Assembly: GCA_902826815.1 (NCBI GenBank)
Contig: CADEGF010000032.1
Span: forward strand, 16,683-77,644
Direction: 5' to 3'
Source: an uncultured Mycobacteriaceae bacterium
Lineage (GTDB): Bacteria > Actinomycetota > Actinomycetes > Mycobacteriales > Mycobacteriaceae
DNA length: 60,962 nucleotides
Shown here: one piece after another, positions 6,965 to 29,922 of the stretch
Position numbering within the stretch: the first letter of the stretch is position 1
Layout of the letters: every line of letters starts with the position of its first letter
Made by a program: the position numbers and the translations under genes
Notes under the pieces: generated by a model
Told to the model about the DNA's origin: nothing
Seen by the model: only the letters and a program-made list of their open reading frames with translations
Database searches by the model: none

Positions 6965-7129
6965 CCTACCCCTTCTATCTGCACAGGCCACAGTCGTAAT
7001 CAGTATGCGCCGAACGGAATTCTCTCAAACCGGACTGGACCCATTGAATGCTTCATTTCTGGCTCTGACCAGTGGGTCGAATAGCCGATATGTTCGAGCC
7101 ATCCGGTGAGAAACGCGAAGGAGACAGCT
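6965..7129. promoter_or_regulatory. Divergent control region between tauR-like gene and aminotransferase gene
   Basis: The 165-base gap separates divergent starts. It contains CTGGACCCA at 7035-7043 and CTGGCTCTGACC at 7059-7070, which loosely resemble the direct CTGGAC repeats I recall for TauR. A good ribosome-binding site, GAAGGAG, precedes the GTG at 7130. I could not settle the promoter hexamers. Confidence 0.35.
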
Positions 7130-8494
7130 GTGAACGGAAACGAGTTGCGGGCGCGTGCCCGTCGTCACCTCGGTCCCCACTTCACCCGTAAGCCCGCCTG
7201 GGACAGCGATTTTCCCGTCTTCGTCCGCGGCGACGGGAGCTATCTGATCGACACGGAGGGCGACCGCTATCTCGACGGCCTCGCAGGTCTCTTCTGCGTC
7301 AATATGGGCCACGGTCGAAGCGACATCGCCGCGGCCGCCGCCGATCAGATCGGCACGCTGGCCTACGCTTCCAACTGGGGCATGGCTCATCCGCCTGCGA
7401 TCGAGGCGGCCAGCCTGATCGCGGAACTCGCACCGGGCGACCTCGGCACCACATTCTTCGTCAACTCCGGTTCGGAGGCGGTCGAGACCGCGGTGAAGTT
7501 CGCCCGCCAGTATCACCGGAGCCAGGGTCAGCCGGAGCGCACCAAGATCATCAGCCGGGAAATGGCGTACCACGGAACGACCTTGGGCGCATTGTCGATA
7601 ACCCAGCTGCCGAAGATCAAGGAACCGTTCGGCCCCCTGCTTCCCGGCGTGCGCAGCGTGCCCAACACCTTGGGCTATCTCGGCGACTGCGGGCCCGCGG
7701 GTCAACTGCCGTGCGTGCAGGCGATCGAGCAAGTCATCGCCGAGGAAGGCCCCGAAACTATCGCGGCGCTGTTCGCCGAGCCCGTGCAGAACGGCCGAGG
7801 CGCGCTGGTGCCCCCCGACGGCTATTGGCAGGAGCTTCGCGCCATCTGCGACAAGTACGGCATCCTGCTCGTCTCCGACGAGGTCATCTGCTCGTTCGGG
7901 CGGTTGGGCCACTGGTTCGGCCACGGCCTCACCGGCGTCGTGCCGGACCTCATCACCTTCGCCAAGGGTTCGACATCCGGCTACGCGCCGCTCGGCGGCA
8001 TGATCGCGCGTGAGCAACTGGTGCAGGATCTTTTCGAATCGTCGGCGGGCGGCACCTTCACCCACGGCGCGACGTGGGGCGGCCACCCCGTCTCGACCGC
8101 CGTCGCGACCGCCAACATCACCGCGATGCGCGACGAGAAGGCACTGGAGAATGTGGCCGACCGCGCCCCGAAGGTGAAGGCGGCACTGAACTCTCTTCAG
8201 CAGTCCCACCGGTGTGTGAAAGATATTCGGGGAACAGGGTTCTTCTACGCCATCGAGTTGATGGCCGACCACAACAGTGGCCGCGAACTCACCGAGCAAG
8301 AATCGCTGTCCGTCCTGCGCGAGGTGCTACCCGAGTCATTCAAGCGCACCAAGGTCATTCTGCGCGGAGACGACCGCGGCGCCACGATGATCATGGTGTC
8401 GCCACCACTGGTGGCCGACGACGACGTGCTCGACGAACTCCTGCACGGTATCGACGGCATGCTGACCGACATCGAGAAGGCCGTGCAACCTTAA
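7130..8494 (+). CDS. tpa: Class III aminotransferase, probable taurine:pyruvate aminotransferase
   Basis: 454-residue PLP enzyme of aminotransferase class III. Visible parts are the N-terminal GDRYLDGLAGLFCVNMGHGR, the VNSGSEAVETAVKFARQYH segment that binds the cofactor phosphate, the aspartate of LLVSDEVICSFGRLG, and the catalytic lysine in ITFAKGSTSGYAPLGG. Tpa transfers the amino group of taurine to pyruvate, giving sulfoacetaldehyde and alanine, the substrate of Xsc. The position between a TauR-like gene and pta, with tauABC and xsc nearby, supports this role over other omega-amino acid transaminases. GTG at 7130 is preferred over 7106 on its ribosome-binding site. It converges on pta with a six-base gap. 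Confidence 0.8.
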   Translation: MNGNELRARARRHLGPHFTRKPAWDSDFPVFVRGDGSYLIDTEGDRYLDGLAGLFCVNMGHGRSDIAAAAADQIGTLAYASNWGMAHPPAIEAASLIAELAPGDLGTTFFVNSGSEAVETAVKFARQYHRSQGQPERTKIISREMAYHGTTLGALSITQLPKIKEPFGPLLPGVRSVPNTLGYLGDCGPAGQLPCVQAIEQVIAEEGPETIAALFAEPVQNGRGALVPPDGYWQELRAICDKYGILLVSDEVICSFGRLGHWFGHGLTGVVPDLITFAKGSTSGYAPLGGMIAREQLVQDLFESSAGGTFTHGATWGGHPVSTAVATANITAMRDEKALENVADRAPKVKAALNSLQQSHRCVKDIRGTGFFYAIELMADHNSGRELTEQESLSVLREVLPESFKRTKVILRGDDRGATMIMVSPPLVADDDVLDELLHGIDGMLTDIEKAVQP

Positions 8495-8500
8495 GGCGCG

Positions 8501-9511
8501 TCACCGCACCGCTTGTACGGCGCTCAGCAGAGACATCACCTCGATGTCTCTGCTGCTGCATCCGCGGGAAAGGTCGTTCAGCGGAGCCGAAAGTCCCTGC
8601 AGAATAGGGCCAAGCGCCATGGCGCCGCCCAGCCGCTCGGCCAGCTTGTAGCCAATGTTGCCCGCCCCGAGATTGGGGAAGACCAGGACGTTGGCCTCGC
8701 CTGCCGCATCGGAATGCGGCGCCTTGGCGGCGGCCACCGAGGCGACGAGGGCGGCATCCAGCTGCAGCTCACCGTCGATCCGCAACTCCGGGGCACGCTC
8801 GCGCACCAGCGCTGTCGCGGCGTTGACCGTATCGACGTCGGGATGGTCTGCGCTGCCCTTGGTGGAGAACGACAGCATCGCGATCACCGGCTCGAGACCG
8901 GTGAGGCTGAGATGGGTGGCCGCGGCCGCAATGGCGATGTCCGCCAACTCATCAGCGGACGGGGCGGGGACGACGGCGCAGTCGGAGAACGTCAACTGTC
9001 GGCCGTCGGGCAGCACCATCAAGAAGGCACTGCTCAGTGTCTTGATACCGGGAGCGAGCCCAACGACGCGCAGGCCCGCCCGCAATACGTCCGGCGTAGG
9101 ACGGGTCGCTCCCGCGACGCAGGCATGTACGCGCCCCGCGCGCACCGCGGCCGCGGCCACGAAGACCGGGTCGGTCGTAGCCTCGTCGATGCGCTCTGGG
9201 TGTCGCGCGAAGCCGGCCTCGAGGGTGGCCCGGACATTGTCGTCAGATACCGCGTCGGCCATATCGACGATGGTCTCGTCGGGAAGGTCCACCCCGTGCG
9301 TCCTCGCCGCCGCGCGGATTCGGTTCGCGTCCCCGAACAGTCGAGGGGCGATGAGGCCGTCGACGGTGAGCTTGGCCGCGGCGTGCAGGACACGGCCATC
9401 CTCCGCATCGGTTAGAGCTACGGTCAGACCTGCACCGCCCACGGTGGCGCGCCATCGGTCGATGATCTCGCTTTGACCGACCGGCACAGCGCCATCGGCG
9501 CGAGTCGTCAA
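8501..9511 (-). CDS. pta: Phosphate acetyltransferase
   Basis: 336-residue phosphotransacetylase of the short single-domain type. Recognisable segments are [47 protein letters not shown] and a C-terminal [19 protein letters not shown]. It would convert the acetyl phosphate released by Xsc into acetyl-CoA for central metabolism. It lies 20 bases downstream of the ABC transporter ATPase gene on the same strand and is most likely the last gene of that operon. Its location beside the taurine genes makes it a dedicated copy rather than the housekeeping one. Confidence 0.92.
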
Positions 9512-9531: not shown

Positions 9532-10338
9532 CTAGTGGTCTGCGGACTCGTAGATTTTCCGGCTGACTTTGTCTCGGAGAGCGATGAATTCGGGCAGTGT
9601 GCGTAGTTCGGCGCCCAACCGCTTGCCGACTTCCCTGGAGAAGTCGACCTGTTCGTCGAACACGATTCGCCCGGGGCGGGCGCTCATCACGATCACCCGG
9701 CTGCCGAGAAAGATGGCCTCTTCCACGCTGTGGGTGATGAAGAAGATGGTCTTCTTCGTCTCCCGCCAGATGTTGAGCAACTCGAGCTGCAGGCGCTCGC
9801 GGGTGAGAGCGTCAAGCGCACCGAACGGCTCGTCCATCAGCACGATCTGAGGGTCGTTGGCGAGCACCCGCGCGATCTGGCAGCGCTGCTGCATACCGCC
9901 GGAGAGCTCGTACGGGCGGCGTTGCACGAAGTCGCGCAGCCCCACCAATTCCAGGTAACGGTGGGCATCGGCACGGCGCGTCGCCTTGTCAACGCCACGC
10001 AGTCGCGGACCGAACTCGACGTTACCCAGCACCGACAGCCACGGGTAGAGGTTGGACTGCTGGAACACCACACCCCGCTCGCAGCCGGGGGCGGCGATCT
10101 TCTCGCCGTCGATGGTGATCGAACCTTCAGTGGGGGTGATGAACCCTGCCAGCAGCTGCAGCAAGGTCGTCTTACCGCACCCCGAAGGCCCAGCGACGCA
10201 AACGAATTCGCCCGGCTCGATGACCAGGTCGATCTCGGAAAGGGCGTGCACCTGGGTGCCCTTGCTGAGGTAACGCTGGGTGACGTGATCGACCACCAGC
10301 CGCTGGGTGTCGGTAGCGGTCGTCGCCGACTTGGTCAT
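9532..10338 (-). CDS. tauB: Taurine/sulfonate ABC transporter ATP-binding protein
   Basis: 268-residue ABC ATPase with Walker [13 protein letters not shown], signature LSGGMQQR and Walker [13 protein letters not shown] followed by the H-loop [16 protein letters not shown]. This arrangement is typical of the nitrate/sulfonate/taurine class (TauB, SsuB, NrtD). It overlaps the binding-protein gene by four bases and energises uptake through the permease further upstream. Context of tpa, pta and xsc points to taurine as substrate, though aliphatic sulfonates cannot be excluded. Confidence 0.85.
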
Positions 10339-11411
10339 TGCGCTGCCGCCTCCGCAGGCTTGGCGTCGACGCCGCCCGCATAGACCGCTGGAGGGCTGAC
10401 GGCGGTGATCCCGCCCTGCTGGAGAAGGAAGCCCGCGGTGTCCTGCAGATCGGTCGCCATCTTGCCGCCCAGGTAGTCGGCGCTGGCCTGCTCCTTCGCC
10501 GGGAGGTACTCGTAACCGTCAAACTGGGTCTTGACGGTGTCGGGGTTGATGCCCATCACCGCGCCGATGCTCACCGACGCCTCGTCGGGCTTGTCGAGGA
10601 TCTGTTGCACTGCCGCGTTCTGCGCCTTGGCCCACCCGGTCATGAAGGCGGGGTTGGCGTCGATGAAGCTGGTCGTCGCGGCGCCGAGGTCGTAGGTGGG
10701 CTTACCGGCTTTTGCGGTGTCCGCGCTGGACAATATGATGTGGCCGCCGCTCTTGAGGAGCTCCGACAGCGTCGGATCCCACACCCAGGCGGCGTCGATC
10801 TGGCCGCCCTCCCAGGCCGAGGGTTGCTTGTCCGGCGACAGGTTGACGATCGAGACGTCGGTGGCCGGATTCATTCCGGCGTCCTGCAGTGCCTGTAGCA
10901 GGCTGTAGTGCGCGGTGGAACTGAACGCGACGGCGATGGTCTTGCCCTTGAGTTGCTTGATGTCGGTGATCGCCGCGTCCTTCACCGCCAGGGACTCGGC
11001 CTTGCCGATGACGTCATGCACCCAGATCACCTTCATCGGGATGTTCAGCGGCGCGGACAGTGCCTTGGTGGCAGGGCTCGAGCCGATCAGCCCGACGTCG
11101 GCGCTGTTGGAACCGAAGGCCTGGATGACGTCGCCGCCGGAGTCGAACTTGTTCCAGGTGATCTTCGCGTTCGGCATGCACTTCTCCAACATCTGCTGGT
11201 CCTTCACGACCAGGTCACCGTTGGGGATGTTCTGGTAGGCGATGCGCACGGATGACGTCACCGACGGGTCGGCCTCGAACGGGCACTCACTGCCGCCGGC
11301 CGCTTCCTCGGCGGGCCGATTGGATTCGACGCAGCCGCTGAGTGCCGTCGCTCCGACGACGGCGACCGCTGCCGCAAGGACACGAACAGAAGGGCGGTGG
11401 GCCTTGATCAT
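10335..11411 (-). CDS. tauA: Taurine/sulfonate ABC transporter substrate-binding lipoprotein
   Basis: 358-residue periplasmic-type binding protein. The N-terminus MIKAHRPSVRVLAAAVAV continues to a lipobox LSGC, so it is probably a lipoprotein anchored outside the membrane. The NMT1/SsuA-like fold is suggested by IAYQNIPNGDLVVKDQ near the start, VIWVHDVIGKAESLAV and DAAWVWDPTLSELLKSGG. The chosen ATG at 11411 gives the signal peptide directly; a longer reading would overlap the permease gene. It sits between tauC and tauB, and delivers taurine or a similar sulfonate to TauC. Confidence 0.85.
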   Translation of the reverse strand: MIKAHRPSVRVLAAAVAVVGATALSGCVESNRPAEEAAGGSECPFEADPSVTSSVRIAYQNIPNGDLVVKDQQMLEKCMPNAKITWNKFDSGGDVIQAFGSNSADVGLIGSSPATKALSAPLNIPMKVIWVHDVIGKAESLAVKDAAITDIKQLKGKTIAVAFSSTAHYSLLQALQDAGMNPATDVSIVNLSPDKQPSAWEGGQIDAAWVWDPTLSELLKSGGHIILSSADTAKAGKPTYDLGAATTSFIDANPAFMTGWAKAQNAAVQQILDKPDEASVSIGAVMGINPDTVKTQFDGYEYLPAKEQASADYLGGKMATDLQDTAGFLLQQGGITAVSPPAVYAGGVDAKPAEAAAQ

Positions 11412-11445
11412 GAATACTCCCGAGGTTGGTGGGACAGGTCGGCGC

Positions 11446-12363
11446 TCATGCTTTTCCGCGCCAGGGAACAAGTACCTTCTCGACACCCTTGATGGCCAGG
11501 TCGAGCAGGATCGCGGCGATACCGATCACAATGATGCAGGCGATTGTGAGCGGTGTCTTGAGTTCGGTACCGGACAGGTAGGCAAGCCCACCGATCCCTG
11601 GAATACCGTTGTTGAGCTCCGCCGCGACCACGGTGGTCCAGGCGAAACCGACGGCGATCCGGATACCGCTGATCACCTCGGGCAGCGTGGAGGGCAAGAC
11701 GACATGGGTAATCGTCTGTAACCGGCTGGCCCCGAGCGACAGTGCCCCGTTGATGCGTTCCTCTCTGACGCCGCGGACGCCGTTGATGGTCGCGATCGTG
11801 ATGGGCGGGAACGCGGCGAGGAACAGCAGCCACATCTTGGAGGTGTCGCCGATGCCGAACCACACGATCAAGATGCCGATGTAGCCAAGAGGCGGCAGAG
11901 CCCGGAGGAAGTTGAGGTAGGGCTCGATGATGGTGGCGATCGGCTTGTAGCTGGCCATGGCGAAACCGAGAATCGGGCCGAAAATGACGGCCCAACCGAC
12001 GCCGACGCCGATTCGCTGCAGGCTGGCGATGAGGTGTTCCCATAGGTAATAGTTCTGCTCACCCTTGACCATCCTGTCGACGCCAGGGGCGATCGGATGG
12101 TCGGTGTTGGCCAGCACGAACGCGTGCCAGACAGACGCAGGCGATGGCAGGTACAACGGCTTGATCAGCTGCAACGACGTGATCAGCCACCACACCCCGA
12201 GGAAGACGACGAGCGCGATGATCCGGACCAGAGTCCGCCGCAACAGCTGGCGCCTGCGCTCCTGGGTGTCGCGACGCTGCGCCTCGCGGGCGCCCAACTC
12301 CGGGTCGGTGGCCGCGCCGGCGGCGGGAGAACCGGCGGCGGCAGAAGTGGTGCTCCTAGTCAT
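11446..12363 (-). CDS. tauC: Taurine/sulfonate ABC transporter permease
   Basis: 305-residue inner-membrane permease. A charged cytoplasmic N-terminus is followed by about six hydrophobic segments, beginning with IIALVVFLGVWWLITSL. The EAA loop, GASRLQTITHVVLPSTLPEVISG-like, lies near residue 210 and would contact TauB. It is the first gene of a tauCAB-pta unit and is separated from the HAD hydrolase gene upstream by 123 bases that contain a palindrome. Confidence 0.85.
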   Translation of the reverse strand: MTRSTTSAAAGSPAAGAATDPELGAREAQRRDTQERRRQLLRRTLVRIIALVVFLGVWWLITSLQLIKPLYLPSPASVWHAFVLANTDHPIAPGVDRMVKGEQNYYLWEHLIASLQRIGVGVGWAVIFGPILGFAMASYKPIATIIEPYLNFLRALPPLGYIGILIVWFGIGDTSKMWLLFLAAFPPITIATINGVRGVREERINGALSLGASRLQTITHVVLPSTLPEVISGIRIAVGFAWTTVVAAELNNGIPGIGGLAYLSGTELKTPLTIACIIVIGIAAILLDLAIKGVEKVLVPWRGKA

Positions 12364-12486: not shown

Positions 12487-13179
12487 TCACGACGTCACCG
12501 GCTCTCGCAATCCGAGGACTTCGGGAAGTGTCGCCGCACTGGTCAGGATGTGGGTGTGCGGTTCGGGCCGCAGCGTCTCGGCGTCGTGGGCGCCGGTCAG
12601 CACCCCGGCGACATACCTTGCGCCTGCGTTGGCTCCTGCGCGTAGGTCGTTGGGTGTGTCGCCGGCGACGAGAACCTCCGAAACGCTCTGCACTCCAACG
12701 GTTTCCATCGCATGAAAGATCAGGTACGGTGCTGGCCGGCTTTCCCGAACCTGATCGCTGGTGATCACCGCGTCGATATCGCGCCCGACCCGCCAGCCGA
12801 CCTGCTCGAGGAGCGGGCCCGCGATCGCACCCGAATAGCCCGTCTGCAGAGCGATCTTGACGTCGTGCTCGCGCAGCACGGCGAACGCGTCCACGATGCC
12901 CGGCAGCGGCGCAGGCGGCGTCGAGCGGTAAGCATCGAGAAGTTGGCGGGTGAATTCGGATTCGACGGCATCGATCTCGTCGACGGTCGCATCTGGAAGC
13001 AGCCCTGCGATCGCCTGCCGCTTGCCTGCGCCCTTCCACCGGTCGAACTGATCGGAGGGAATCGGCTTGCCGGTGTGTGCCTCGACCGCGCTGCGCAACG
13101 CCACGTACACCGCCCCGCCCTCGTCGATGCTGGTGCCTGCGATGTCCAACGCAACCATCGCGATCCGCTCGTGAGTCAC
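12487..13179 (-). CDS. Phosphonatase-like HAD hydrolase
   Basis: 230-residue haloacid-dehalogenase superfamily protein. The nucleophile is Asp12 in LDIAGTSID, with alanine at position 14 as in phosphonoacetaldehyde hydrolase (PhnX) rather than the usual second aspartate. Lys53 in GAGKRQAIAGLL aligns by eye with the Schiff-base lysine of PhnX. Motif II is LQTGYSG and motif III/IV is VLVAGDTPNDLRAGANAGA. PhnX cleaves phosphonoacetaldehyde, the phosphorus analogue of sulfoacetaldehyde. It overlaps the CobT-like gene by four bases. The true substrate is uncertain. Confidence 0.75.
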   Translation of the reverse strand: MTHERIAMVALDIAGTSIDEGGAVYVALRSAVEAHTGKPIPSDQFDRWKGAGKRQAIAGLLPDATVDEIDAVESEFTRQLLDAYRSTPPAPLPGIVDAFAVLREHDVKIALQTGYSGAIAGPLLEQVGWRVGRDIDAVITSDQVRESRPAPYLIFHAMETVGVQSVSEVLVAGDTPNDLRAGANAGARYVAGVLTGAHDAETLRPEPHTHILTSAATLPEVLGLREPVTS

Positions 13180-14852
13180 CGGTACTGCCCCGCTTTGCTC
13201 AGTGATGCGATGGCCGTCAACACGTCGGCCATGACTCGGCGCGTCGCCCCTTCGGTGAGGTCGAGGGTCGTGCAGCGGTCGTAGTAGATAGTGAGATCCA
13301 GTCCAACACCGACGGCGCAGACGTCGACATCCGATGTGGCGGCGAGGACATCGCGCAGATGGTGGTCGAGGTATTCCCGGGCGTTGGCGAGGCTCGTCGC
13401 GCCGTCCATCGGGCTGCCGTCGGAGATGACGACGAGAATTCGGCGCTTTTCGTCACGCGCTTCCAGCCGGCTGCGGGCCCACTCAACGGCCTCGCCGTCG
13501 ATCCCCTCCTTGTAGAGGTCGAGCTTCATGAGACCGGCCATCGCGGTGCGGGCCGCCCGGTAAGGCGTGTCGGCACTCTTGATCACCAGGTGGCGAACTT
13601 CGTTGAGGCGTCCCGGGTTACGGGGTCGCCCGCAGCGAATCCAGTCACGGCGGGCGCGCCCACCGTTCCAGGAGGCTGTCGTGAAGCCGAGTACCTCGCA
13701 GCCCACCCCTGCGAGTTCCAGCGCACGGGCGAACACGTCCACCAGCACGGTCACCGGTTCGCTGACTGCCTTCATCGACCCGGAGCAGTCGACGAGAAAC
13801 GACACGATGGCGTCGGTGCGGGGTGCGTGGGCTGGGGCCAGGAAGATGTTGCGCTCATTGGGCGTGACGATGAGCTGGGCCAGGCTGCGGCCGTCGATGT
13901 ATCCGGAGTCGTGGCCACCCTCCCAGCCGTCGTGGTGCGGTTCGGCGAACATCTGCGTGAGACGGCGGCCGAGGGCCCGCGCGCTCACCCCGCCCGATTG
14001 AACCGCCCGGTCGACGCGCTCACGGTATTCGCGCAGCTCGGCCTGTCGCACCAGCGTCGCCAGGTTGCGCGTCTCGTCGTAGTCCCTGGTGAACACCCGG
14101 TACCCGGCGCTCTCCCCTCGCAGCGTCCGGCCTGCGCCGCCACGTGCGTCGGGCAATGCGTCGTCGTCGGATTCGAAGTCGAGAAGCCACTCGAACGCCT
14201 CCAAGCCCGGATCCTGCTCACCCTGCTCGATGTTCAGCTGCGGGAGGTCGGCGACGCGCTCTGCGATGGCGCGCGCGAGCATTCCGAAATCCCTCTGGGA
14301 GTTCCGGTTTCGGCGAAGCTGCGGGAGCTCACGGCCAATCGCCGGTGACAGTCCGAACCGGGTTACCTCGATCAGATCCTGCGTCCAGTCGGCGATCGGC
14401 TCCGCGGTGATCCGGGAGCGGCAGACCTGCGCAATGGTGTACAGCAGCAGGCCGGAGTCGGTTTCGACCGAGTTCGACGCCTCGAATTCCCGCGACCACG
14501 CACCGAATCGATCGGCGAGGTTGCGGCGCACACCGGGCCAGGCGGCCGGTGCCAGCGACTCCACCCGGAACTGTTCGAGCATTTCGAAGACCAGGCGGCT
14601 CGCGGTGCCGTCCGGCCGCAACTCGGCATGCACACCGGGGTCGTTGTACCGCAACCGAAGTGCCATCCCGTCGGCGGCGCCGCGATCGGTCGGCGGATGC
14701 AGGTGAGGCACCGGCATCGGCACCGAACGCGCGCCCCGGTACAGGGTCGAGCCGCGGAAGTGCAGGCCACGCTGGCGGCTCAGGGCGCGGATGGACGCGG
14801 CGCGCAGCTCGCGGATGCCCTGCTCACGTCGGATCGCGGCCTGTTCGTTCAT
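13176..14852 (-). CDS. CobT-like VWA-domain protein
   Basis: 558-residue protein. The C-terminal VWA domain has the metal motif [12 protein letters not shown] and a later [12 protein letters not shown], as in the CobT subunit of aerobic cobaltochelatase. The N-terminal half is acidic in the middle ([10 protein letters not shown]). The start at 14852 overlaps the stop of the CobS-like gene (ATGA), and its own stop region overlaps the HAD gene. No CobN large subunit is present nearby, so cobalt chelation for B12 is not supported. A chaperone role with its AAA+ partner is inferred. Confidence 0.8.
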
Positions 14853-15784
14853 GCGACCCTGACCGGCGCCCCGTCGAGCTCGCGATCGAAGCATCGCTGG
14901 AAGTACTCGGCCACGATCGGCCTTTCCGCGTCATCACACTTGTTGACGAACGAAAACCGGAAGGCCATGCCGACATCGCCGAAGATCTCGAGGTTCTCCG
15001 CCCACGTGATCACCGTGCGCGGTGACATCAACGTCGACAGGTCACCGACGCGGAAGCCGCTTCGGGTGAGGTCCGCGACGGCGACCATCGAGGCAACGAT
15101 GTCACGATCGACCTCGGGCACCTTCGACGCGACGATGTCGGCCTCCACCTGTGCCGGAAGGTGATCGAGCGACGCCACGATGTTCCATCGGTCGATCTGC
15201 GCGTGGTTGAGCCGCTGCACACCGTGATAGAGGCCGTTGAGATTGCCCAGCCCGACGGTGTTCGCGGTTGCGAACAGCCGGAAGCCCGGGTGCGGTGTGA
15301 TCACCCGATTCTGGTCAAGCAGGGTCAACTTCCCGTCCTGCTCGAGCAACCGTTGGATCACGAACATGACGTCGGGCCTGCCTGCATCGTATTCGTCGAG
15401 CACCAGAGCGACCGGTCGCTGGATCGCCCACGGAAGGATGCCTTCGGCGAACTCGGTGACCTGCTTGCCATCTCGCAGTGTCACCGAATCGCGGCCGATC
15501 AGGTCCATCCGGCTGAGCTGGCCGTCGAGGTTCACCCGCACACATGGCCAGTTGAGCCGTGCGGCGACCTGTTCGATGTGTGTGGACTTACCCGTGCCGT
15601 GCAGGCCTTGGATCAAGACCCGACGGTTGCGCGCGAAGCCGGCGAGCAACGCCAGCGTGACCGACTCCTCGAAGCGGTAGGCGGGGTCGGTGTCGGGGAC
15701 GTGCTCGTCATACTCGGTGAGCGCGGGCACCTGCAGGTCCGAGTCGATGCCGAAGACGTCTCGCGCCGATACGAGGCGGGTCAT
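14849..15784 (-). CDS. CobS-like AAA+ ATPase
   Basis: 311-residue MoxR/CobS-type ATPase. Walker A is [13 protein letters not shown], Walker B is [16 protein letters not shown], and sensor 1 is [13 protein letters not shown]. The start at 15784 overlaps the IclR stop (ATGA); upstream sequence in this frame is not protein-like. In cobaltochelatase, CobS forms a hexamer with CobT that drives the chelatase CobN. Here the pair lies in an IclR-headed operon between taurine genes and xsc, so it probably services some protein of sulfonate metabolism. No client is identified. Confidence 0.82.
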
Positions 15785-16611
15785 GAGCTCTCCTGTGACG
15801 GCTCGCCTGCGGCAACTTCTGCCTCGATCTCGCCGATGGCGTCCGCAGCGCGGCGCAGCGCGGGCAGCAGCCGCAATGCCCTTTCGGGCGTCAGCCGCAT
15901 CACCGGCGCCTGAACTGCGATGCCCAGGTTGGAGATTCCCGTGGCCGACGGAACAAGGACCGCCGCGCACACGAGGCCGGGCAGGAACTCCTCGGCGTCG
16001 ATCGCGTATCCGTCGCGGCGAATCTGTTTCAGCTCCTCCTCGATCTGGTCGACGTCGGTGACCGTGTTTGGCGTGAGCTGCTTCAACGGTGCAGCTTCCA
16101 ACAGCCGGCGGCGCTGCGCGGGTGCCAGCTGCGACATGATGATCTTTCCGCTCGCCGAACAATGTGCCGGTACGCGCGAACCCGCATGCAAGGTGAACCG
16201 CAGCGGCTCAGGCGTTTCCACGCGGTCGAGGTAGAGGATCTCGTTGCCGGACAGCGTTGTCAGGTTGCAGCTCTCGCCGAGCTCTTCCACCAGGTCCCGC
16301 AGAACCGCATGACGCGCCCCGTGGTGGGTGTCGTTGAGAAGCAGGCTTTCGGCCATCCGGCGCAGTCGGGCGCCCGTCCGGTAGTGGCGGCCGCTGTTCT
16401 CCCGGATCAGCAGTCCGGCCCCTTCGAGCTGTTGCAGCATGCGATGCAGGGTGGGCTTGGCCATCCCGGTGGTCTCGACCAGTCCCTGCAGCGTGAACAA
16501 CTGGTCCTTCGATGCGATCAGCTCGAGCAGCGAGAACAACCGCAGCATCGGAGTCTCCCCGGTCAGCTCGGCGGTCGCACCCGCCTCATCGATCCTGCGG
16601 ACCTCACCCAT
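15781..16611 (-). CDS. IclR-family transcriptional regulator
   Basis: 276-residue IclR regulator. It has an N-terminal winged helix ([25 protein letters not shown]) and a C-terminal effector domain with [26 protein letters not shown] and [14 protein letters not shown]. It is divergent from xsc, and the 198-base gap between them contains several GGAAC/GTTCC palindromes of the kind IclR proteins bind. It heads the IclR-CobS-CobT-HAD operon. It probably controls both directions and may repress until a sulfonate or sulfoacetaldehyde-related effector is bound. It is clearly different in sequence from the two other IclR proteins in the window. Confidence 0.88.
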
Positions 16612-16645
16612 GGCCCCTCCTTCACATCGCCGTCTCCATAAAACC

Positions 16646-16780
16646 GGAACGTGTTCCGAAAAACAACATACTCCGTTCCAAATTCAGAGATCTGCGTTGA
16701 CTCTTTACGCAATGGGTCGTAGCCTGACATCGGATCACAGAATAAGGAACATTTTGTTCCAAATTTTCCAAAATGTGGAA
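16646..16780. promoter_or_regulatory. IclR-type operator cluster between iclR and xsc
   Basis: Three palindromes are visible: GGAAC-GT-GTTCC at 16646-16657, GGAAC-ATTTT-GTTCC at 16746-16760, and TTCC-N7-GGAA at 16766-16780. GTTCCAAATT also occurs twice, at 16675 and 16756. The first lies close to the IclR start; the other two lie just downstream of the predicted xsc transcription start, where a bound repressor would block xsc. Confidence 0.7.
16697..16725 (+). promoter_or_regulatory. Predicted xsc promoter
   Basis: TTGACT at 16697-16702 and TAGCCT at 16720-16725 are separated by 17 bases and fit a housekeeping mycobacterial promoter (TTGACn / TAnnnT). The expected transcription start near 16732 is about 80 bases before the xsc ATG and directly upstream of two palindromes. 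Confidence 0.6.
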
Positions 16781-16809
16781 AACCATTCGAACCGAGGAGG
16801 ACGACTCAG

Positions 16810-18609
16810 ATGACCCAGGCACCAGACCGCGCCGCCGTATCGGGTGTGCAGCGGATGACCCCATCCGAGGCGTTCGTCGAGACGATGGTGGCCAACGACG
16901 TCACCGACATCTTCGGCATCATGGGTTCGGCCTTCATGGATGCGATGGACATCTTCGCGCCCGCAGGCATCAGGCTCGTCCCGGTAGTGCACGAGCAGGG
17001 TGCGGCCCATATGGCCGACGGGTACGCCAGGGTCAGCAATCGGCACGGTGTGGTGATCGGCCAGAACGGCCCGGGGATCAGCAACTGTGTCACCGCCATC
17101 GCTGCGGCGTTCTGGGCGCACAGCCCCGTCGTCATCGTCACCCCTGAGGCAGGCACGATGGGTACCGGCCTCGGCGGATTCCAGGAAGCCAACCAGCTGC
17201 CGATGTTCCAGGAATTCACCAAATATCAAGGGCACGTGAACAACCCGAAGCGGATGGCCGAGTACACCGGACGCTGCTTCGATCGTGCGATGTCAGAGAT
17301 GGGCCCGACGCAGCTCAACATTCCACGCGACTACTTCTACGGCGAGATCGAAACCGAGATCCCGCAGCCGAGCAGGCTCGACCGTGGGCCAGGCGGCGCG
17401 AAGAGCCTCGACGAAGCCGCCGAGCTGATCGCGCAGGCCGAGTTCCCCGTGATTATTTCGGGCGGCGGCGTCGTGATGGCCGATGGCGTCGAGGAATGCA
17501 AAGCCCTCGCAGAACGACTCGGCGCACCGGTGGTGAACAGCTACCTGCACAACGACTCATTCCCCGCCAGCCACCCGTTGTGGACCGGCCCGCTTGGCTA
17601 CCAGGGCTCCAAAGCCGCGATGAAGCTGATCTCGAAAGCCGACGTCGTGATCGCGCTCGGCACCCGCCTCGGCCCGTTCGGCACCCTGCCGCAGCACGGC
17701 CTCGAGTACTGGCCAAAGGATGCCAAGATCATCCAGATCGACGCCGACCACAAAATGTTGGGCCTGGTCAAGAAGATCAGCGTCGGCATCTGCGGCGATG
17801 CAAAAGCGGCGGCCGTCGCACTCGTCGAGCGACTCGACGGCAAGAAGCTGGCCGCCGACTCCACCCGCGAGTCGCGTGCCGGTCAGATCAAGGCCGAAAA
17901 GGACGCCTGGGAATCCGAACTCGACGAGTGGACCCACGAGCGCGACCCGTACAGCCTCGACATGATCGCCGAGCAGGAAGCCGAGGAAGGTAACTGGCTT
18001 CACCCCCGGCAGGTGCTGCGCGAGCTCGAGAAGGCGATGCCAGACGACGTGATGGTGTCCACCGATATCGGCAATATCAACTCGGTGGCCAACAGCTACC
18101 TGCGGTTCGAGAGGCCACGCAGCTTCCTGGCCCCGATGAGCTTCGGCAACTGCGGCTACGCACTCCCGACGATCATCGGAGCGAAGGCCGCAGCGCCGGA
18201 ACGTCCCGCAATCGCGTACGCGGGCGACGGCGCATGGGGTATGAGCATGGGCGAGATCATGACCGCCGTTCGGCACGACATCCCTGTCACCGCAGTCGTT
18301 TTCCACAACCGACAGTGGGGTGCGGAGAAAAAGAACCAGGTCGACTTCTACAACCGCAGGTTCGTCGCGGGCGAGCTGGAGAGCGAGTCGTTCGCCGGTA
18401 TCGCCGAGGCCATGGGCGCCGAAGGCATCGTGGTCGAGAAGCTCGACGAGGTGGGGCCCGCGCTGGAGCGCGCGGTCGCCGCTCAGATGAACGAAGGCAA
18501 GACGACGGTCGTTGAGATCATGTGCACCCGCGAGCTGGGCGACCCGTTCCGCCGCGACGCGCTCTCCAAGCCGGTCCGGTTGCTGGACAAGTACAAGGAC
18601 TACGTCTAG
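16810..18609 (+). CDS. xsc: Sulfoacetaldehyde acetyltransferase
   Basis: 599-residue thiamine-diphosphate enzyme, normal length for Xsc. The N-terminal catalytic glutamate is in VVHEQGAAHMADGYARV. The segment PTQLNIPRDYFYG is one I associate with Xsc, and the cofactor motif runs from GDGAWGMSMGEI to the asparagine of VVFHNRQWG. Xsc splits sulfoacetaldehyde with phosphate into acetyl phosphate and sulfite. It is the point where the taurine and sulfoacetate branches meet. GAGGAGG precedes the ATG. It is transcribed away from the IclR operon and toward a sulfite-exporter-type gene. Confidence 0.95.
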   Translation: MTQAPDRAAVSGVQRMTPSEAFVETMVANDVTDIFGIMGSAFMDAMDIFAPAGIRLVPVVHEQGAAHMADGYARVSNRHGVVIGQNGPGISNCVTAIAAAFWAHSPVVIVTPEAGTMGTGLGGFQEANQLPMFQEFTKYQGHVNNPKRMAEYTGRCFDRAMSEMGPTQLNIPRDYFYGEIETEIPQPSRLDRGPGGAKSLDEAAELIAQAEFPVIISGGGVVMADGVEECKALAERLGAPVVNSYLHNDSFPASHPLWTGPLGYQGSKAAMKLISKADVVIALGTRLGPFGTLPQHGLEYWPKDAKIIQIDADHKMLGLVKKISVGICGDAKAAAVALVERLDGKKLAADSTRESRAGQIKAEKDAWESELDEWTHERDPYSLDMIAEQEAEEGNWLHPRQVLRELEKAMPDDVMVSTDIGNINSVANSYLRFERPRSFLAPMSFGNCGYALPTIIGAKAAAPERPAIAYAGDGAWGMSMGEIMTAVRHDIPVTAVVFHNRQWGAEKKNQVDFYNRRFVAGELESESFAGIAEAMGAEGIVVEKLDEVGPALERAVAAQMNEGKTTVVEIMCTRELGDPFRRDALSKPVRLLDKYKDYV

Positions 18610-18664: not shown

Positions 18665-19393
18665 CTATGCCGTCAGCGCCGTCAAAGCGCCTGCGACGAT
18701 CACCAACCCGATGACCGCCAACCGGAACGCGCGCTCCGGCAGACGATGGGCGATCCACAGGCCCGCGCCGGTTCCGAGAAGTGATGCCACGACATATGTC
18801 GGAAGGGCAGGCCACAGTATCGAGTGCGGGATCTGGCCGCGCGCGCCGAGGACGATCAGAGACACCGCGCTGACGACGGTGAAGTACCCGGCCATGTCAG
18901 CGATGAAGACCATCGGCGGGATACCCGCCCTGGTCAGCAGCAGAGCCGGGGGTGGGCCGTTCAGGGCGGTGGTGGTGCTGAGAAAGCCACCGACAGCGCC
19001 CGTGGCCGCCGCGGCGGCCGGCGAGGGTGAGCGCGGCTCGTCGGGGGTCGAAACAACCACCATGCTGACGCCACACAGCACCGCAAGTACGCCCGCCGCG
19101 ATCTTCAGGTAGTGCACCGAAACCACATGTAGGACTGCGGCACCGGCCCAGGCGCCCGGAATGCTGCCGAGCGCCAGAAGACTTGCTCGCGACCACACGA
19201 TGTGTGCCCGCAACCTGATCATCACCGCACAACGGGTCACCAGCCCGACGACGAGAATGACCGAAACCGTCTCGGGCACACTGATTCCCACCAGCAGCAT
19301 CAGAGGTGTCGCAACGAGAGCGGTTCCGAACCCCGTTGCCCCGCCGACGATTGAAGCGAAAGCAATGCAGACGCAGCCGAGCGCGAGCGTCAA
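18665..19393 (-). CDS. TauE/TSUP-family exporter, probable sulfite exporter
   Basis: 242-residue membrane protein with about eight hydrophobic segments and duplicated half-structure, as in the TauE/SafE/TSUP family. It opens with MTLALGCVCIAFASIVGG and ends with a hydrophobic helix. A TTG start at 19393 is used; it lies eight bases after the stop of the IclR gene. TSUP proteins beside xsc are thought to remove sulfite from the cytoplasm. It is the last gene of the operon running from the aldehyde dehydrogenase and converges on xsc. Confidence 0.8.
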   Translation of the reverse strand: MTLALGCVCIAFASIVGGATGFGTALVATPLMLLVGISVPETVSVILVVGLVTRCAVMIRLRAHIVWSRASLLALGSIPGAWAGAAVLHVVSVHYLKIAAGVLAVLCGVSMVVVSTPDEPRSPSPAAAAATGAVGGFLSTTTALNGPPPALLLTRAGIPPMVFIADMAGYFTVVSAVSLIVLGARGQIPHSILWPALPTYVVASLLGTGAGLWIAHRLPERAFRLAVIGLVIVAGALTALTA

Positions 19394-20263: not shown

Positions 20264-21160
20264 TCAGCTGTTGACGCCGGCGCCGACCGGCGCCACCCCG
20301 AAGCTCTGCAGGGCCGCTGCCACCTGGCTGGGGACGTCGATCACGGCGACTCCAGCCTGGGTCAGTGCGTCGACCTTGGACTGGCCGCTGCCGCGGTTGC
20401 CGGTGACGATGGCACCGGCGTGACCCATGCGGCGGTCCGGTGGAGCGCTACGGCCCGCGATGAACGACACCACGGGTTTGCCGATGCCCGCGATCAGCTC
20501 GGCGGCGTCCTCTTCCATGGTCCCGCCGATCTCGCCCACCAGCACAATCGCGTCTGTGCGTGGGTCAGCGTCGAGTATCCGAACCGCATCCAGTGTGGTG
20601 GTGCCCAGGATCGGGTCACCGCCGATGCCGATGAACGCCGACTGCCCGTAGCCTGCGGTGACCAGGTTGAGCGCGAGCAGGGTGCCGAGGCTGCCGCTGC
20701 GCGACACGACTCCGATGTTGCCCGGCTGGAAGATGTTCTTTGCGAACCCCGGCATGATGCCCACCGACGCCTCGCCCGGCACCACGAGCCCCGCGGTGTT
20801 CGGTCCGAGTATCTGGACCCCGCGATCGCGCGCTTCGGCCAGCACATGCATCACGTCGTGATACGGCACGTGTTCGGTGAGGAAGACGACCTTGTGGACG
20901 CCTGCGTTGATGGCGTCGAGAACCGCGGTCTTAGCGGCCAGCGGCGGGACGAACAGCACCGCGACGTCGAGGCGGTGGGCTTCCGACGCTTCCACGACCG
21001 AGTTGTAAACCGGAATCCCGGCCACTGTCCGACCGCCCTTGTTGGGCGTCGCACCGGCGACCACGTTGGTGCCGCATTCAATCATCCGCTCGGTCCAGAA
21101 TGATCCCTGCTTGCCCGTGATCCCCTGTACTACGACGGCCTCGGTTCCGGTGACCAGCAT
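20264..21160 (-). CDS. SucD-like acyl-CoA ligase alpha subunit (ADP-forming)
   Basis: 298-residue protein matching the alpha subunit of succinyl-CoA-type ligases. It has an N-terminal CoA-binding region (VQGITGKQGSFWTERMIECG), LGPNTAGLVVPGEA, and the active-site phosphohistidine in RRMGHAGAIVTG. It overlaps the beta-subunit gene by one base. With the acylating aldehyde dehydrogenase upstream and xsc nearby, the likely reaction is activation of sulfoacetate to sulfoacetyl-CoA. Succinate or malate are family alternatives, but the housekeeping sucCD is expected elsewhere. Confidence 0.85.
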   Translation of the reverse strand: MLVTGTEAVVVQGITGKQGSFWTERMIECGTNVVAGATPNKGGRTVAGIPVYNSVVEASEAHRLDVAVLFVPPLAAKTAVLDAINAGVHKVVFLTEHVPYHDVMHVLAEARDRGVQILGPNTAGLVVPGEASVGIMPGFAKNIFQPGNIGVVSRSGSLGTLLALNLVTAGYGQSAFIGIGGDPILGTTTLDAVRILDADPRTDAIVLVGEIGGTMEEDAAELIAGIGKPVVSFIAGRSAPPDRRMGHAGAIVTGNRGSGQSKVDALTQAGVAVIDVPSQVAAALQSFGVAPVGAGVNS

Positions 21161-22335
21161 CAGCGCACTCCCTCGTTGACTAGGACGTTCTCGTGTCCGG
21201 CGGCTGCCACTGCGGCCTGCACCGCGTCGTCCATCAGGTCGTATGGCTGCAGCCCGAGCCGATCCTTGACAAGGGCGATGGCTTCGTCTTCGCCGGTGCC
21301 GTGGATGGAGAAGAACACCGGAACGTCGGGTCGAAGCGCCTCGATCGCGTTGACCACGCCTTCGGTCATGACGTCGGTTCGCGCGAACGCCCCGCAGAAG
21401 TTGACCAGCAGGCTGCGGACGTTCGGGTTCTTCAGCACCAGTGCGAGTGCAGGGGTGGCCTTGGTGTAGGCGTCGCCGCCGATCTCCAGGAAGTTGGCCG
21501 GGCTGCCGCCGTAGTGGTTGACGGCGTCGAGGGTGGCCATCGTCAGCCCCGCGCCGTTGGCGAGCACCCCGACGGTGCCGTCGAGCTCGATGAATTGCAG
21601 ACCAAGTTGCGCGCCCTCGTCTTCGAGGATCGACTCTTCCTCGGCGGGCGCGCTCTCCAGGCTTCGCACGAAGTCGGCGGGTTGGCGCGCCAGCGCGCCG
21701 GGGTCCAGTGACACCTTCGCGTCGAGTGCGACCACGCGCGCATCCTCGGTGAGGATCAGCGGATTGACCTCGACCAGGTCGGCCTCCACATGGCGGTACA
21801 CCGCGTAGAGCTGGATGAGCGCGGCGGCGACGGAGGCCTGCTCGGCACCGGTTAGGTCGGTGCCGGACAGCAGCGCTGCGGCGTCGGCTTCCGCGAGGCC
21901 TGCCCTGATGTCTATCGGCAGCCGCAGCACCTTCTCGGGGGCGGTGGCGTTGACCTCCTCGATGTCCATGCCACCCTCGACCGAGAACAGCACGAGCGGT
22001 CCCTTGCTGGCCGGGTCGTTGAGGACGGCGGCGTAGAGCTCGCGGGCGATCGGCATCGCCTGCTCGACGAGCACGGCGGTCACCGGGAAGCCGTTGATCG
22101 ACGTCCCAATGAGGTCCGCCGCGACCTGTTGCGCCTGCGCCGAGGTCTCGGCGAACCGGATGGCGCCGGATTTGCCGCGCTTGCCCGCAGGGATCTGCGC
22201 CTTGATGACGACCCGGCCGCCCAGGGCGCTCGCAATCGTCGCGGCCTCGATGGCGTCCCGTGCGACGGCACCGTCGGGGGTGACGAGCCCTCCGCGCGAG
22301 AGCAGGCTCTTTCCTTGGTACTCAAGAAGTTTCAT
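21160..22335 (-). CDS. SucC-like acyl-CoA ligase beta subunit (ADP-forming)
   Basis: 391-residue ATP-grasp protein, normal for SucC. It has the start MKLLEYQGKSLL, the nucleotide-binding segment VVIKAQIPAGKRGKSG, VEVNPLILTEDARVVALDAK, and the C-terminal GGDAYTKATPALALVLKNP with VNFCGAFARTDVMTEGVV. In succinyl-CoA ligase this subunit binds nucleotide and contacts the substrate. It starts four bases before the end of the dehydrogenase gene's downstream spacer and is coupled to the alpha subunit. It is inferred to act on sulfoacetate because of context, replacing the AMP-forming SauT ligase. Confidence 0.85.
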   Translation of the reverse strand: MKLLEYQGKSLLSRGGLVTPDGAVARDAIEAATIASALGGRVVIKAQIPAGKRGKSGAIRFAETSAQAQQVAADLIGTSINGFPVTAVLVEQAMPIARELYAAVLNDPASKGPLVLFSVEGGMDIEEVNATAPEKVLRLPIDIRAGLAEADAAALLSGTDLTGAEQASVAAALIQLYAVYRHVEADLVEVNPLILTEDARVVALDAKVSLDPGALARQPADFVRSLESAPAEEESILEDEGAQLGLQFIELDGTVGVLANGAGLTMATLDAVNHYGGSPANFLEIGGDAYTKATPALALVLKNPNVRSLLVNFCGAFARTDVMTEGVVNAIEALRPDVPVFFSIHGTGEDEAIALVKDRLGLQPYDLMDDAVQAAVAAAGHENVLVNEGVR

Positions 22336-22338
22336 GGT

Positions 22339-23763
22339 TCACCGTCCGTAGGTCTCGAAGTAGTGGCCCCACAGTTGCTCCTCGGTGGGAACTCGTGGCG
22401 GGATGACCCGCGCAACTCTGGTGATGTTCAGGAAGTGCCGGTAGGACAGGTTGTCGCTGATGCTGTTGCCTGCCCATGTGCCCGCGCCCATCGTCAGCGT
22501 GAAGCCAAGGCCGTTGTCGAAGCCGCCTCCGGTACCGAAGCAGTGCGCCTGGTTGACGAGCACCCTGGCCACCCGCAGCCGCTCCGCGACGGCGCCGATG
22601 AGTTCGTCGTCGAACGTGTGGATGCCACACGAGTGCCCTGCGCCCTGAAAGTCGAGCAGCTGCTGGATCCGCTCCAGCCCCGCGTCGAAGTCCTGATAGC
22701 GGTAGACGGTGAGCACCACCGACAACTTCTCGCCACTGAACGGATACTCCGGACCGACGCCGTCCTCTTCGACCATGAAGAAGTCGGCGTCGCGAGCCTC
22801 GGGCGCGTCCAGCCCGGCGAGCGCGGCGATCTTCTCCGGCGGTTGGGCCGTGATCGCGGTGTTGAGCTTGCCGTCCGGCCACATCACGGCCTGCAGCCTC
22901 GCCTTCTCCGGCGCCGTCAGCAGGTAGCCGCGCTGGGAACGTAAGTGGTTGAGCGCATCGTCGTAGACGGCGGCGTCGATGTGCACTGAGTTTTCGGAAG
23001 AGCAGCTCGTCGCGTAGTCGAACACCTTGCTGCGCTTGATCTTGTCTGCGGCGTCGGCGAGGTTCGCGTCCGCGGCGATGATCACCGGAGCATTGCCCGC
23101 TCCCACCCCGATCGCCGGGGTGCCACTGGAGTACGCCGCCCGCACGTTGCGCTGAGAACCAGTGACCACGACGAGATCTGCCTGCTTCATCAACTCGTTC
23201 GTCAACGCCTTGCTGGGCTCCGCGATGAACTGCACGAGGTCGCGCGGTGCACCCACTTTGTCGAGTTCCGCATGGATGTAGCCCACCAGCATCGCGCAGG
23301 TGGAGGCACCCTTGGGCGACGGCGAAAGGATCACGGCGTTGCCGCCCTTGAGTGCCATCATGGTCTTGTTCGCCGGAGTGGCTGCTGGGTTGGTGGACGG
23401 GCACACCGCCGCCACCACACCGACCGGCTTGGCGTATTCGGTGATGCCGAGCGTGGTGTCCTCGCCGATGACACCGACCGACGGCGCTCCGGTCAGGTCA
23501 CGCAGGGTGCCGATGGTCTTGCGCTGGTTCTTGGTGATCTTGTCCGCGACGGAGCCCAGGCCGGTGGCCTGCACGCTGAGCTCGGCCAACTCCTTGGCAC
23601 GCTCGGGCTCATAGATCGCCCAGGCGGCCGCGGCCACGACGTCGTCGACCCGCTGCTGGGAAAAGGTTTGCAGCACCGCCTGCGCGACTCGCGCCTTGGC
23701 GATGAGCTGACCGATCTCCGCGGCGACATCCGCCGCGTCGGTCGAGTTTTGCTTCTCCGACAT
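22339..23763 (-). CDS. sauS: CoA-acylating aldehyde dehydrogenase, probable sulfoacetaldehyde dehydrogenase
   Basis: 474-residue acylating aldehyde dehydrogenase of the EutE/AdhE type. The catalytic cysteine is in FDYATSCSSENSVHID; the nucleotide region includes VVTGSQRNVRAAYSSGTPAIGVGAGNAPV. In Cupriavidus necator, SauS reduces sulfoacetyl-CoA to sulfoacetaldehyde, the Xsc substrate. The following SucCD-like genes would make sulfoacetyl-CoA. ATG 23763 is chosen over an upstream start because GGAAGGAT precedes it. It is divergent from an MFS transporter gene. An acetaldehyde or succinate-semialdehyde specificity is possible. Confidence 0.75.
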   Translation of the reverse strand: MSEKQNSTDAADVAAEIGQLIAKARVAQAVLQTFSQQRVDDVVAAAAWAIYEPERAKELAELSVQATGLGSVADKITKNQRKTIGTLRDLTGAPSVGVIGEDTTLGITEYAKPVGVVAAVCPSTNPAATPANKTMMALKGGNAVILSPSPKGASTCAMLVGYIHAELDKVGAPRDLVQFIAEPSKALTNELMKQADLVVVTGSQRNVRAAYSSGTPAIGVGAGNAPVIIAADANLADAADKIKRSKVFDYATSCSSENSVHIDAAVYDDALNHLRSQRGYLLTAPEKARLQAVMWPDGKLNTAITAQPPEKIAALAGLDAPEARDADFFMVEEDGVGPEYPFSGEKLSVVLTVYRYQDFDAGLERIQQLLDFQGAGHSCGIHTFDDELIGAVAERLRVARVLVNQAHCFGTGGGFDNGLGFTLTMGAGTWAGNSISDNLSYRHFLNITRVARVIPPRVPTEEQLWGHYFETYGR

Positions 23764-23856
23764 ATCGATCCTTCCGAGACGATGTCGACGACGGTGACGA
23801 CTGAACACCCGGGGCCGCAGCCTGCAAATGCCTGTTCAGGGTGCCCATGTCGGTAA

Positions 23857-28931: not shown

Positions 28932-29922
28932 GTCCAGGCGCCGTCAGGCGCTCACGGTGGGGCCGGTCGCGGCACTCGCAATCGTTCTTGCAGGCTGTGG
29001 TGACAGCAGCGGCGGAGGCAGCGACGCTGATGGCAACGTTTTCCACAGACCGGTGGACCTTGTCGTGCCGTTCGGGCCCGGCGGTGGCGCCGACCAGGTG
29101 GCGCGCGCGGCGGGTGCGGCGATGGAGGACATCATCGGCCAGCAGGTCCCGGTGGTGAACGTGCCGGGCGCGACGGGAAGCACCGGAATGACCAAAATGC
29201 TGTCCGGAAGGCCGGGTGAATCGATGGCCATCCTCATCCAGGACACGCTCACCACGGTCCCCGCAGGCACGGCCTCGTTCAAGCTCGATGAGCTCCGGGG
29301 CGCCTGCCGGCTGCAATCGATGCCGTCGGCCATCATGGTCCGCAAGGACACCTACGCCGACTGGGCGGCGCTCGCCGCCGCCGCGAAACAGAAGCCCGGG
29401 CAGCTGAAGGTCGCGACGGTGGGCACGAACAGCGTCGATGACATCGTCCTGGCTGCTCTGAGGGACAAGCTAGGCACAGAGTTCCGGGCCGTGCCGTTTT
29501 CCGAGCCGAGCGAGCGGTACGCCGCCCTCCTGGGTGGCGGGGTCGACGTGTTGTATGAGCAGCTCGGCGACGTCAAGCAGTACTTGGACTCCGGGGACTT
29601 CGTGCCGGTCGTCCTGATCGCAGACGAACCGGTCGAGGGCTACGAGAACGTGCCCACCGCCGAAAAACTCGGGCTCCCCAAGGAAGTGGTTCTCCCGCAG
29701 TTCCGAGGGATCGTGGTCTCGGCTGACGCCTCCGACAAGGTCGTCCAAGCACTCTCAGATGCCTGTGGCGAGGCCGTCAAGACCCCGAAGATGAAAGAGT
29801 TCCAGTCGCAGGTGTTCGCTGCGCCGGACAGCTTCCAACCCGCGGACGAGTTCCAAAGCTTCCTCGACGAACAGCAGTCGCTGATCGCCGACCAGCTCAA
29901 GTCCTACAACATCGGGGGCTGA
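28921..29922 (+). CDS. tctC: TctC/Bug-family substrate-binding lipoprotein
   Basis: 333-residue extracytoplasmic binding protein. A signal peptide starts MSVKSRRRQALTVGPVAA and ends at the lipobox LAGC, so it is a lipoprotein. The Bug-fold signature VDLVVPFGPGGGADQVAR and the loop VVNVPGATGSTGMTKML form the ligand pocket that usually holds a carboxylate. The ATG at 28921 overlaps the end of tctA. It is the last gene of the operon; downstream is insertion-sequence debris. Confidence 0.88.
   Translation: MSVKSRRRQALTVGPVAALAIVLAGCGDSSGGGSDADGNVFHRPVDLVVPFGPGGGADQVARAAGAAMEDIIGQQVPVVNVPGATGSTGMTKMLSGRPGESMAILIQDTLTTVPAGTASFKLDELRGACRLQSMPSAIMVRKDTYADWAALAAAAKQKPGQLKVATVGTNSVDDIVLAALRDKLGTEFRAVPFSEPSERYAALLGGGVDVLYEQLGDVKQYLDSGDFVPVVLIADEPVEGYENVPTAEKLGLPKEVVLPQFRGIVVSADASDKVVQALSDACGEAVKTPKMKEFQSQVFAAPDSFQPADEFQSFLDEQQSLIADQLKSYNIGG

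Follow-up and report, generated by a model that had tools for sequence, protein, structure and literature searches.

A cobaltochelatase-like AAA+/VWA gene pair accompanies one clade of sulfoacetaldehyde acetyltransferase and is likely to serve it

The described systems closest to the gene pair that we consider here are CbbQ/CbbO, NorQ/NorD, and the CobS/CobT subunits of the cobaltochelatase CobNST. The pair lies in a 60,962-nucleotide stretch of DNA from an uncultured Mycobacteriaceae bacterium (GenBank assembly GCA_902826815.1, contig CADEGF010000032.1, positions 16,683 to 77,644; "the window" below), near the gene for sulfoacetaldehyde acetyltransferase (Xsc). CbbQ/CbbO combines an AAA+ motor with a VWA adaptor, as the window pair does. 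The excerpts of PMC4660213 available to us describe CbbQO isoforms as rubisco-specific, state that the metal-ion-dependent adhesion site (MIDAS) of CbbO needs one surface carboxylate of rubisco, implicate the C-terminus of rubisco in activation, and report that CbbQO expels inhibitors from rubisco. NorQ/NorD is also an AAA+ protein plus a VWA protein, dedicated to one enzyme; in the available portions of the sources, its MIDAS is proposed to contact acidic residues of the client (PMC13036017, PMC9976466) and it opens the enzyme for metal insertion (PMC13036017). CobS and CobT of CobNST have the same domain families and gene order as the window pair, and the nearest solved structures by sequence are 9ujv for CobS and 9uka for CobT.

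The window pair differs from each of these systems. Unlike CobNST, it scores under the curated cut-offs, has its CobS in a separate clade, has no CobN nearby, and is linked to xsc. Unlike CbbQ/CbbO, it would have another client, for which activation is a proposal, and its CobT-type protein and CbbO have different N-terminal parts. NorQD acts on a membrane enzyme, into which it inserts iron, and we know of no need for iron insertion in Xsc.

Xsc is a central C–S-cleaving enzyme in the breakdown of taurine, isethionate, and sulfoacetate, and to our knowledge it has been treated as self-sufficient. From genomic comparisons, we think it likely that the pair forms a MoxR-AAA+/VWA accessory complex dedicated to the neighboring Xsc as its client; this Xsc belongs to what we will term clade I. 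By analogy to CbbQO or NorQD, the pair is probably an activase or maturation factor for clade-I Xsc, that is, it probably switches the enzyme on or keeps it working. The features concerned are:

12487 to 13179, minus strand: phosphonatase-like HAD hydrolase (TIGR03351, 246.5 bits against a cut-off of 218.9)
13176 to 14852, minus strand: CobT-like protein with a C-terminal VWA domain, termed short CobT (CobT, CobT_C (PF11775))
14849 to 15784, minus strand: CobS-like MoxR-type AAA+ ATPase (AAA_5, CobS_N, CbbQ_C)
15781 to 16611, minus strand: IclR-type regulator, first gene of the iclR-cobS-cobT-HAD run (IclR_C and HTH_IclR)
16612 to 16809: divergent iclR-xsc intergenic region with the palindromes GGAACGTGTTCC (from 16646) and GGAACATTTTGTTCC (from 16746), proposed IclR operators
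16810 to 18609, plus strand: xsc, sulfoacetaldehyde acetyltransferase of clade I, the proposed client (TIGR03457 and tree)

The short CobT is found with xsc in more than one phylum. A scan of genome contigs with a CobT alignment gave 341 confirmed relatives, and we took the best 80 as loci (the set thus samples the nearest relatives and is not random). They come from Actinomycetota, Betaproteobacteria, and Gammaproteobacteria, and 69 of the 80 have xsc (counted at above 60% identity) within the fetched flank. For six of the 11 that do not, the genome has an xsc match at another place (one such match is partial and under the family cut-off), and the remaining five genomes, which had no xsc match, are all metagenome bins with CobT contigs of 3.3–7.6 kb. 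In total, 75/80 loci are in genomes with an xsc match. We also clustered the genes of 84 loci (the 80 plus four plasmid loci, with genes called by codon usage): CobT was present at 84, CobS at 78, Xsc at 68, and IclR at 61, while the next cluster reached 26 and phosphotransacetylase (Pta) 25. In the plasmid collection, seven records have a CobT at above 40% identity over most of its length; all seven also carry CobS and Xsc at 81–85% identity, and each of the four neighborhoods that we read contains xsc and pta. As the short CobT recurs in plasmid records and at 80 genome-contig loci, it is not an oddity of one genome.

The converse survey asked which genomes with Xsc have the pair. Xsc clades were assigned by identity and tree; the TIGR03457 bit score was dropped as a proxy for clade, since the Xsc of G991 reaches 1015.7 bits at an identity of 44% to that of the window. 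Among 396 genomes of Actinomycetota, six have xsc, including our own, and only our own has the short CobT. Among 299 genomes of Pseudomonadota, 21 have xsc: the six whose Xsc is 80–84% identical to the window's have a short CobT (581–846 bits), and the fifteen at 44–47% identity have only a canonical-type CobT (at most 363 bits). Among 200 genomes of Burkholderiales, 24 have xsc: the short CobT was found in 7/8 with Xsc at 80–84% identity and in 0/16 with Xsc at 62–74% identity (one has a canonical-type CobT), and it was also found in 0/176 without xsc (again, one has a canonical-type CobT). Over the genomes that were not chosen via CobT, the short CobT is present in 8/10 with clade-I Xsc versus 0/35 with other Xsc (Fisher test, 2.1e-7). 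Not counted among the ten are the source genome and G793, the latter having been reached via a CobT locus (G793 is included in both the six Pseudomonadota and the eight Burkholderiales above); G976 and G1046, whose Xsc are nearly identical, count as two. In these scans the first pass scored up to 3 or 6 candidates per genome, and at that depth the short CobT was found in 0/566 xsc-negative genomes. The xsc-bearing Actinomycetota and Pseudomonadota were rechecked with all candidates scored, and a CobS-only recheck of all candidates covered the 16 Burkholderiales with clade-II Xsc, along with G1222, G263, and four further genomes.

These results support the suggestion of the earlier note that the pair serves the sulfonate pathway (75/80 loci in xsc genomes, and no short CobT found in the 566 xsc-negative genomes searched), and they narrow the unexplained client that it had placed in this pathway to Xsc of one clade. 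Because the Burkholderiales with clade-II Xsc lack the pair, we propose that the client is Xsc itself and not the pathway at large. As judged by co-occurrence, the pair is specific to one isoform of its client, as CbbQO is. All 21 of the xsc-bearing Pseudomonadota match both CobS and CobT, but we do not read this as a general need of Xsc for CobST, because the 15 with distant Xsc have only a canonical-type CobT and because this count of matches, canonical ones included, covers xsc-bearing Pseudomonadota only.

In a quick tree of 117 Xsc rows (at least 580 residues, above 45% identity, duplicates removed), the CobST-linked Xsc form one starred clade of 83 rows, of which 81 have the pair and two (G1222 and G263) do not. 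(G991, G841, the partial rows from G988 and G206, and short fragments were left out.) In this tree the pair is confined to clade I; most rows were chosen via CobT, and its frequency across the clade rests on the 8/10 above. The window's Xsc scores 1089.3 bits against the TIGR03457 equivalog cut-off of 676.4.

Clade-I Xsc also has distinctive residues. Clade I has 392 conserved positions, and 27 of these set it apart from clade II (the two clade-I exceptions and three distant actinobacterial rows were not used for this list). An insertion at about 384–394 includes E392, which is present in 81/81 clade-I rows and falls in a gap in 18/18 clade-II rows. Other clade-I-specific residues are M38, S91, C93, N424, A471 (next to GDG), and H499 (next to N500); around S91 and C93, clade I has GPGISNC versus GPGITNF in clade II, and at N424 it has DIGNIN versus DIGNIC. 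We take the motifs in or beside which these six residues lie to be cofactor-binding in this class of enzyme. Most clade-I Xsc end in KYKDYV (67/81 rows). None of the 7 PDB matches at E up to 1e-50 is a chain named Xsc. One locus (L061:7030-13695) has two xsc genes, one of clade I (81% identity) and one at 62% that groups with clade II, with cobS-cobT between them, and is a natural comparison of the two types of Xsc.

Several observations weigh against Xsc of clade I being the client. G1222 has a clade-I Xsc and pta, with no CobST near xsc or found elsewhere in the genome, and its Xsc keeps E392 and ends in KYRDYV. G263 has a clade-I Xsc, with no CobT match found and a CobS match of only 22.9 bits. 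We looked for reversion of the clade-I residues in these two genomes and found none that was decisive. In the records of three Rhodococcus plasmids, xsc is present (92% identity) but CobST is not (chromosomes were not searched). Finally, the candidate docking sites are not exclusive to clade I: the KYKDYV end is also found in 2/18 clade-II Xsc, and the segment of alphaproteobacterial Xsc at the site of the insertion is similar in length and acidity (5.5 versus 5.6 acidic residues). By these alignments, the clade-I insertion is unlike clade II, but it is not uniquely acidic.

If the pair does act on Xsc, then a hexamer of CobS would drive CobT, and the MIDAS of CobT would dock on a carboxylate of Xsc, for which the first candidates are in the insertion (D384, E388, and E392). 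The conserved KYKDYV end of Xsc would help docking. We put the insertion and the C-terminus forward as candidate docking sites because CbbQO uses its MIDAS and a surface carboxylate of rubisco, whose C-terminus is also implicated. ATP hydrolysis would then open the thiamine-diphosphate site of Xsc, so that cofactor and metal could be loaded or, instead, a dead-end adduct expelled. The motifs of the two proteins are those of a MoxR AAA+/VWA pair. The CobS-like protein is an AAA+ ATPase with a P-loop (GLHGTGKST) and a Walker B region (LDEYDAG) that are kept in 7 aligned rows. Its partner has a VWA domain in which D355, S357, S359, T391, T392, and D478 are invariant in 24 rows; judging by the motif, these are the MIDAS-type DxSxS..T..D residues.

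A second possibility, a narrower form of this proposal that we consider unlikely, is that clade-I Xsc receives a specific metal (Co, Fe, Mn, Zn, or Ni) from the pair, either where its thiamine cofactor has its metal or at some new site, much as CobNST places Co in a corrin and NorQD places Fe in nitric oxide reductase. The closest relatives of the pair are cobaltochelatase subunits, and M38, S91, C93, N424, A471, and H499 lie in or beside the presumed cofactor-binding motifs. However, position 499 is H, N, or R across groups of Xsc and hence need not bind metal, the C424 of other groups is lost in clade I, and the two clade-I genomes without the pair keep the clade-specific residues. NorQD is a precedent for an AAA+/VWA pair that drives metal insertion (available part of PMC13036017). 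That clade-I Xsc carries a transition metal, or uses one at its cofactor site, and that a repurposed cobaltochelatase motor places it there, seems doubtful to us.

Third, the client could be another protein that is common to clade-I hosts and is encoded outside of the flanks that we surveyed, in which case the link to xsc would reflect common regulation only. We think this quite improbable. Our neighbor survey reached about 10 kb only, but within it no further gene cluster exceeded 26/84 loci, and the Burkholderiales with other Xsc have xsc without the pair. Protein-distance correlations, computed from near-full-length proteins, leave room for such a client: CobT-Xsc distances correlate at r = 0.70 (67 loci), CobT-CobS at 0.86 (80 loci), and CobS-Xsc at 0.65 (66 loci), while IclR and Pta track Xsc at least as well as CobT does (0.81 over 49 loci and 0.88 over 26 loci, respectively). 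The genes travel together, and CobT is not singled out.

Common regulation is also part of our main proposal, in which the upstream IclR would control the chaperone pair and Xsc together, with the palindromes as proposed operators. In the window, xsc is divergent from the iclR run, with 198 bases between them. The sequence GGAAC-N5-GTTCC occurs exactly in 20/47 divergent iclR-xsc regions, compared to 0.7% of random windows of the same length from the same loci, and with at most one mismatch it occurs in 30/47 regions, compared to 1.9% of random windows. The IclR of the window is under the cut-off of every named IclR equivalog (the top one is BhcR, 147.1 versus 350 bits). According to the open reading frame calls on the window, the three junctions of the iclR-cobS-cobT-HAD run are 4-base overlaps of stop and start: ATGA at 15784-15781 (IclR/CobS), ATGA at 14852-14849 (CobS/CobT), and GTGA at 13179-13176 (CobT/HAD). 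These coordinates agree with the earlier description of the four genes as overlapping by four bases at each junction. Strict four-base coupling does not hold as a general trait: the CobS-CobT and IclR-CobS gaps vary among related loci, as estimated from BLAST offsets.

Finally, the pair could be a cobaltochelatase motor for B12 synthesis that lies beside xsc incidentally: it is homologous to CobS and CobT, and the genome does have a CobN match. However, the CobS-like protein scores 494.9 bits against the TIGR01650 equivalog cut-off of 558.55 and the CobT-like protein scores 285 bits against the TIGR01651 cut-off of 759.05. In a quick tree of CobS, the canonical proteins form one starred group of 20/109 rows that excludes the xsc-linked CobS (one of the 20 is a mislabeled row from G1248). 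CobN is matched only once in the genome, by a gene that neighbors cobG and a cobI/J fusion on a different contig, and as a BLAST query this CobN matches none of the other fetched loci. The absence of CobN, from which the earlier note had argued against B12 synthesis, therefore holds for the window and not for the genome. The short CobT was not found in 394/396 genomes of the same genus (G558, of the same genus as the source genome, also carries a short-CobT match), and the linkage to xsc recurs in three proteobacterial and actinobacterial groups. Given the scores under both cut-offs, the place of CobS outside of the canonical clade, and a CobN that sits elsewhere among B12 genes, we reject a role in B12 synthesis as very improbable, in agreement with the earlier conclusion.

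Three plasmids add related observations. On plasmid pPO70-1 of Pandoraea oxalativorans (L012:6942-11005), a CobS-CobT pair is part of a urease cluster, where it immediately follows a UreE-like gene and ureG, and its CobS groups with the canonical CobS in the quick tree; this may be a further case of the motor being recruited to an enzyme. On plasmid pNK83 of Caballeronia sp. NK8 (L008:13621-16238), genes for a GTP-binding protein and an amidohydrolase are directly beside the xsc-linked cobS-cobT. Plasmid pDK3 of Rhodococcus sp. DK17 (L228:1920-17896) has an xsc-pta locus, with no cobS-cobT annotated in the stretch, that also has genes for TauE, thiS, thiazole synthase, a CoA-ligase, an aldehyde dehydrogenase, and a transhydrogenase. 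The thiamine genes beside a thiamine-dependent enzyme may supply its cofactor.

The HAD hydrolase is a different matter. Whereas CobS, Xsc, and IclR from the arrangement in the earlier note do recur together, as counted above, the window-type HAD cluster is present at only 5/84 loci and missing from 79/84 (a second, less similar HAD cluster is at 4 loci), and we reject it as part of the conserved module. It is a lineage-specific addition, next to the pair in Mycobacterium and Rhodococcus. By sequence, its closest solved structures are of the phosphonoacetaldehyde hydrolase PhnX, and it aligns with the DxAGT start motif. Unlike PhnX, it is short of the PhnX equivalog cut-off (TIGR01422, 90.7 versus 220 bits) and matches the PhnX-like model TIGR03351 instead. 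Perhaps it destroys a wrong phosphorylated or phosphonated compound. In a loose analogy, a HAD beside the pair recalls the sugar phosphatases that degrade compounds released by rubisco activases (excerpts of PMC4660213).

The other genes around xsc, in a source genome of 6.87 Mb, are as follows:

7106 to 8494, plus strand: class-III aminotransferase, taurine:pyruvate aminotransferase (Tpa) by context (Aminotran_3; NF005102, 630.2 versus 574 bits)
8501 to 9511, minus strand: phosphotransacetylase, Pta (PTA_PTB; NF007233, 335.8 versus 310 bits)
9532 to 10338, minus strand: ABC ATPase, TauB-like (open reading frame; named by context, not family-tested)
10335 to 11486, minus strand: ABC substrate-binding protein, TauA-like (open reading frame; named by context, not family-tested)
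11446 to 12363, minus strand, in the same strand run: ABC permease, TauC-like (open reading frame; named by context, not family-tested)
18665 to 19393, minus strand: TauE/SafE sulfite exporter family protein (PF01925)
20264 to 22335, minus strand: two succinate-CoA-ligase-like subunits, sulfoacetate-CoA ligase by context (alpha family-tested; beta by position and open reading frame only)
22339 to 23808, minus strand: acylating sulfoacetaldehyde dehydrogenase SauS (NF047625, 785.6 versus 600 bits)

By its predicted gene content, this is a locus for taurine and sulfoacetate. The sulfoacetate genes are followed downstream by TctA and TctC genes of a tripartite tricarboxylate transporter (27357-29922, plus strand). 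The window also encodes a second VWA protein, of the CoxE type (PF05762; 136-1644, minus strand) and from a different family than CobT, and an OrfB_IS605-type transposase with a Cas12f1-like TNB domain (31154-32536, plus strand).

We found no report that links sulfoacetaldehyde acetyltransferase with CobT or MoxR in the literature that we searched, although an earlier remark is possible, as two older papers on Xsc were not covered. A study of the taurine-gene regulon names xsc and, in the part available to us, no cob gene (PMC5320631). If our proposal is true, then AAA+/VWA activases extend to thiamine-diphosphate enzymes, and the pair illustrates how subunits of cobaltochelatase came to serve a new client. 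In that case, public genomes that label this pair "cobaltochelatase" or "cobalt chelatase" would mislead. If the pair inserts a metal, then a machine for metal insertion would have passed from a corrin to a sulfonate-degrading enzyme. And if clade-I Xsc is the client, then Xsc splits into two types that would be expected to behave differently in the laboratory.

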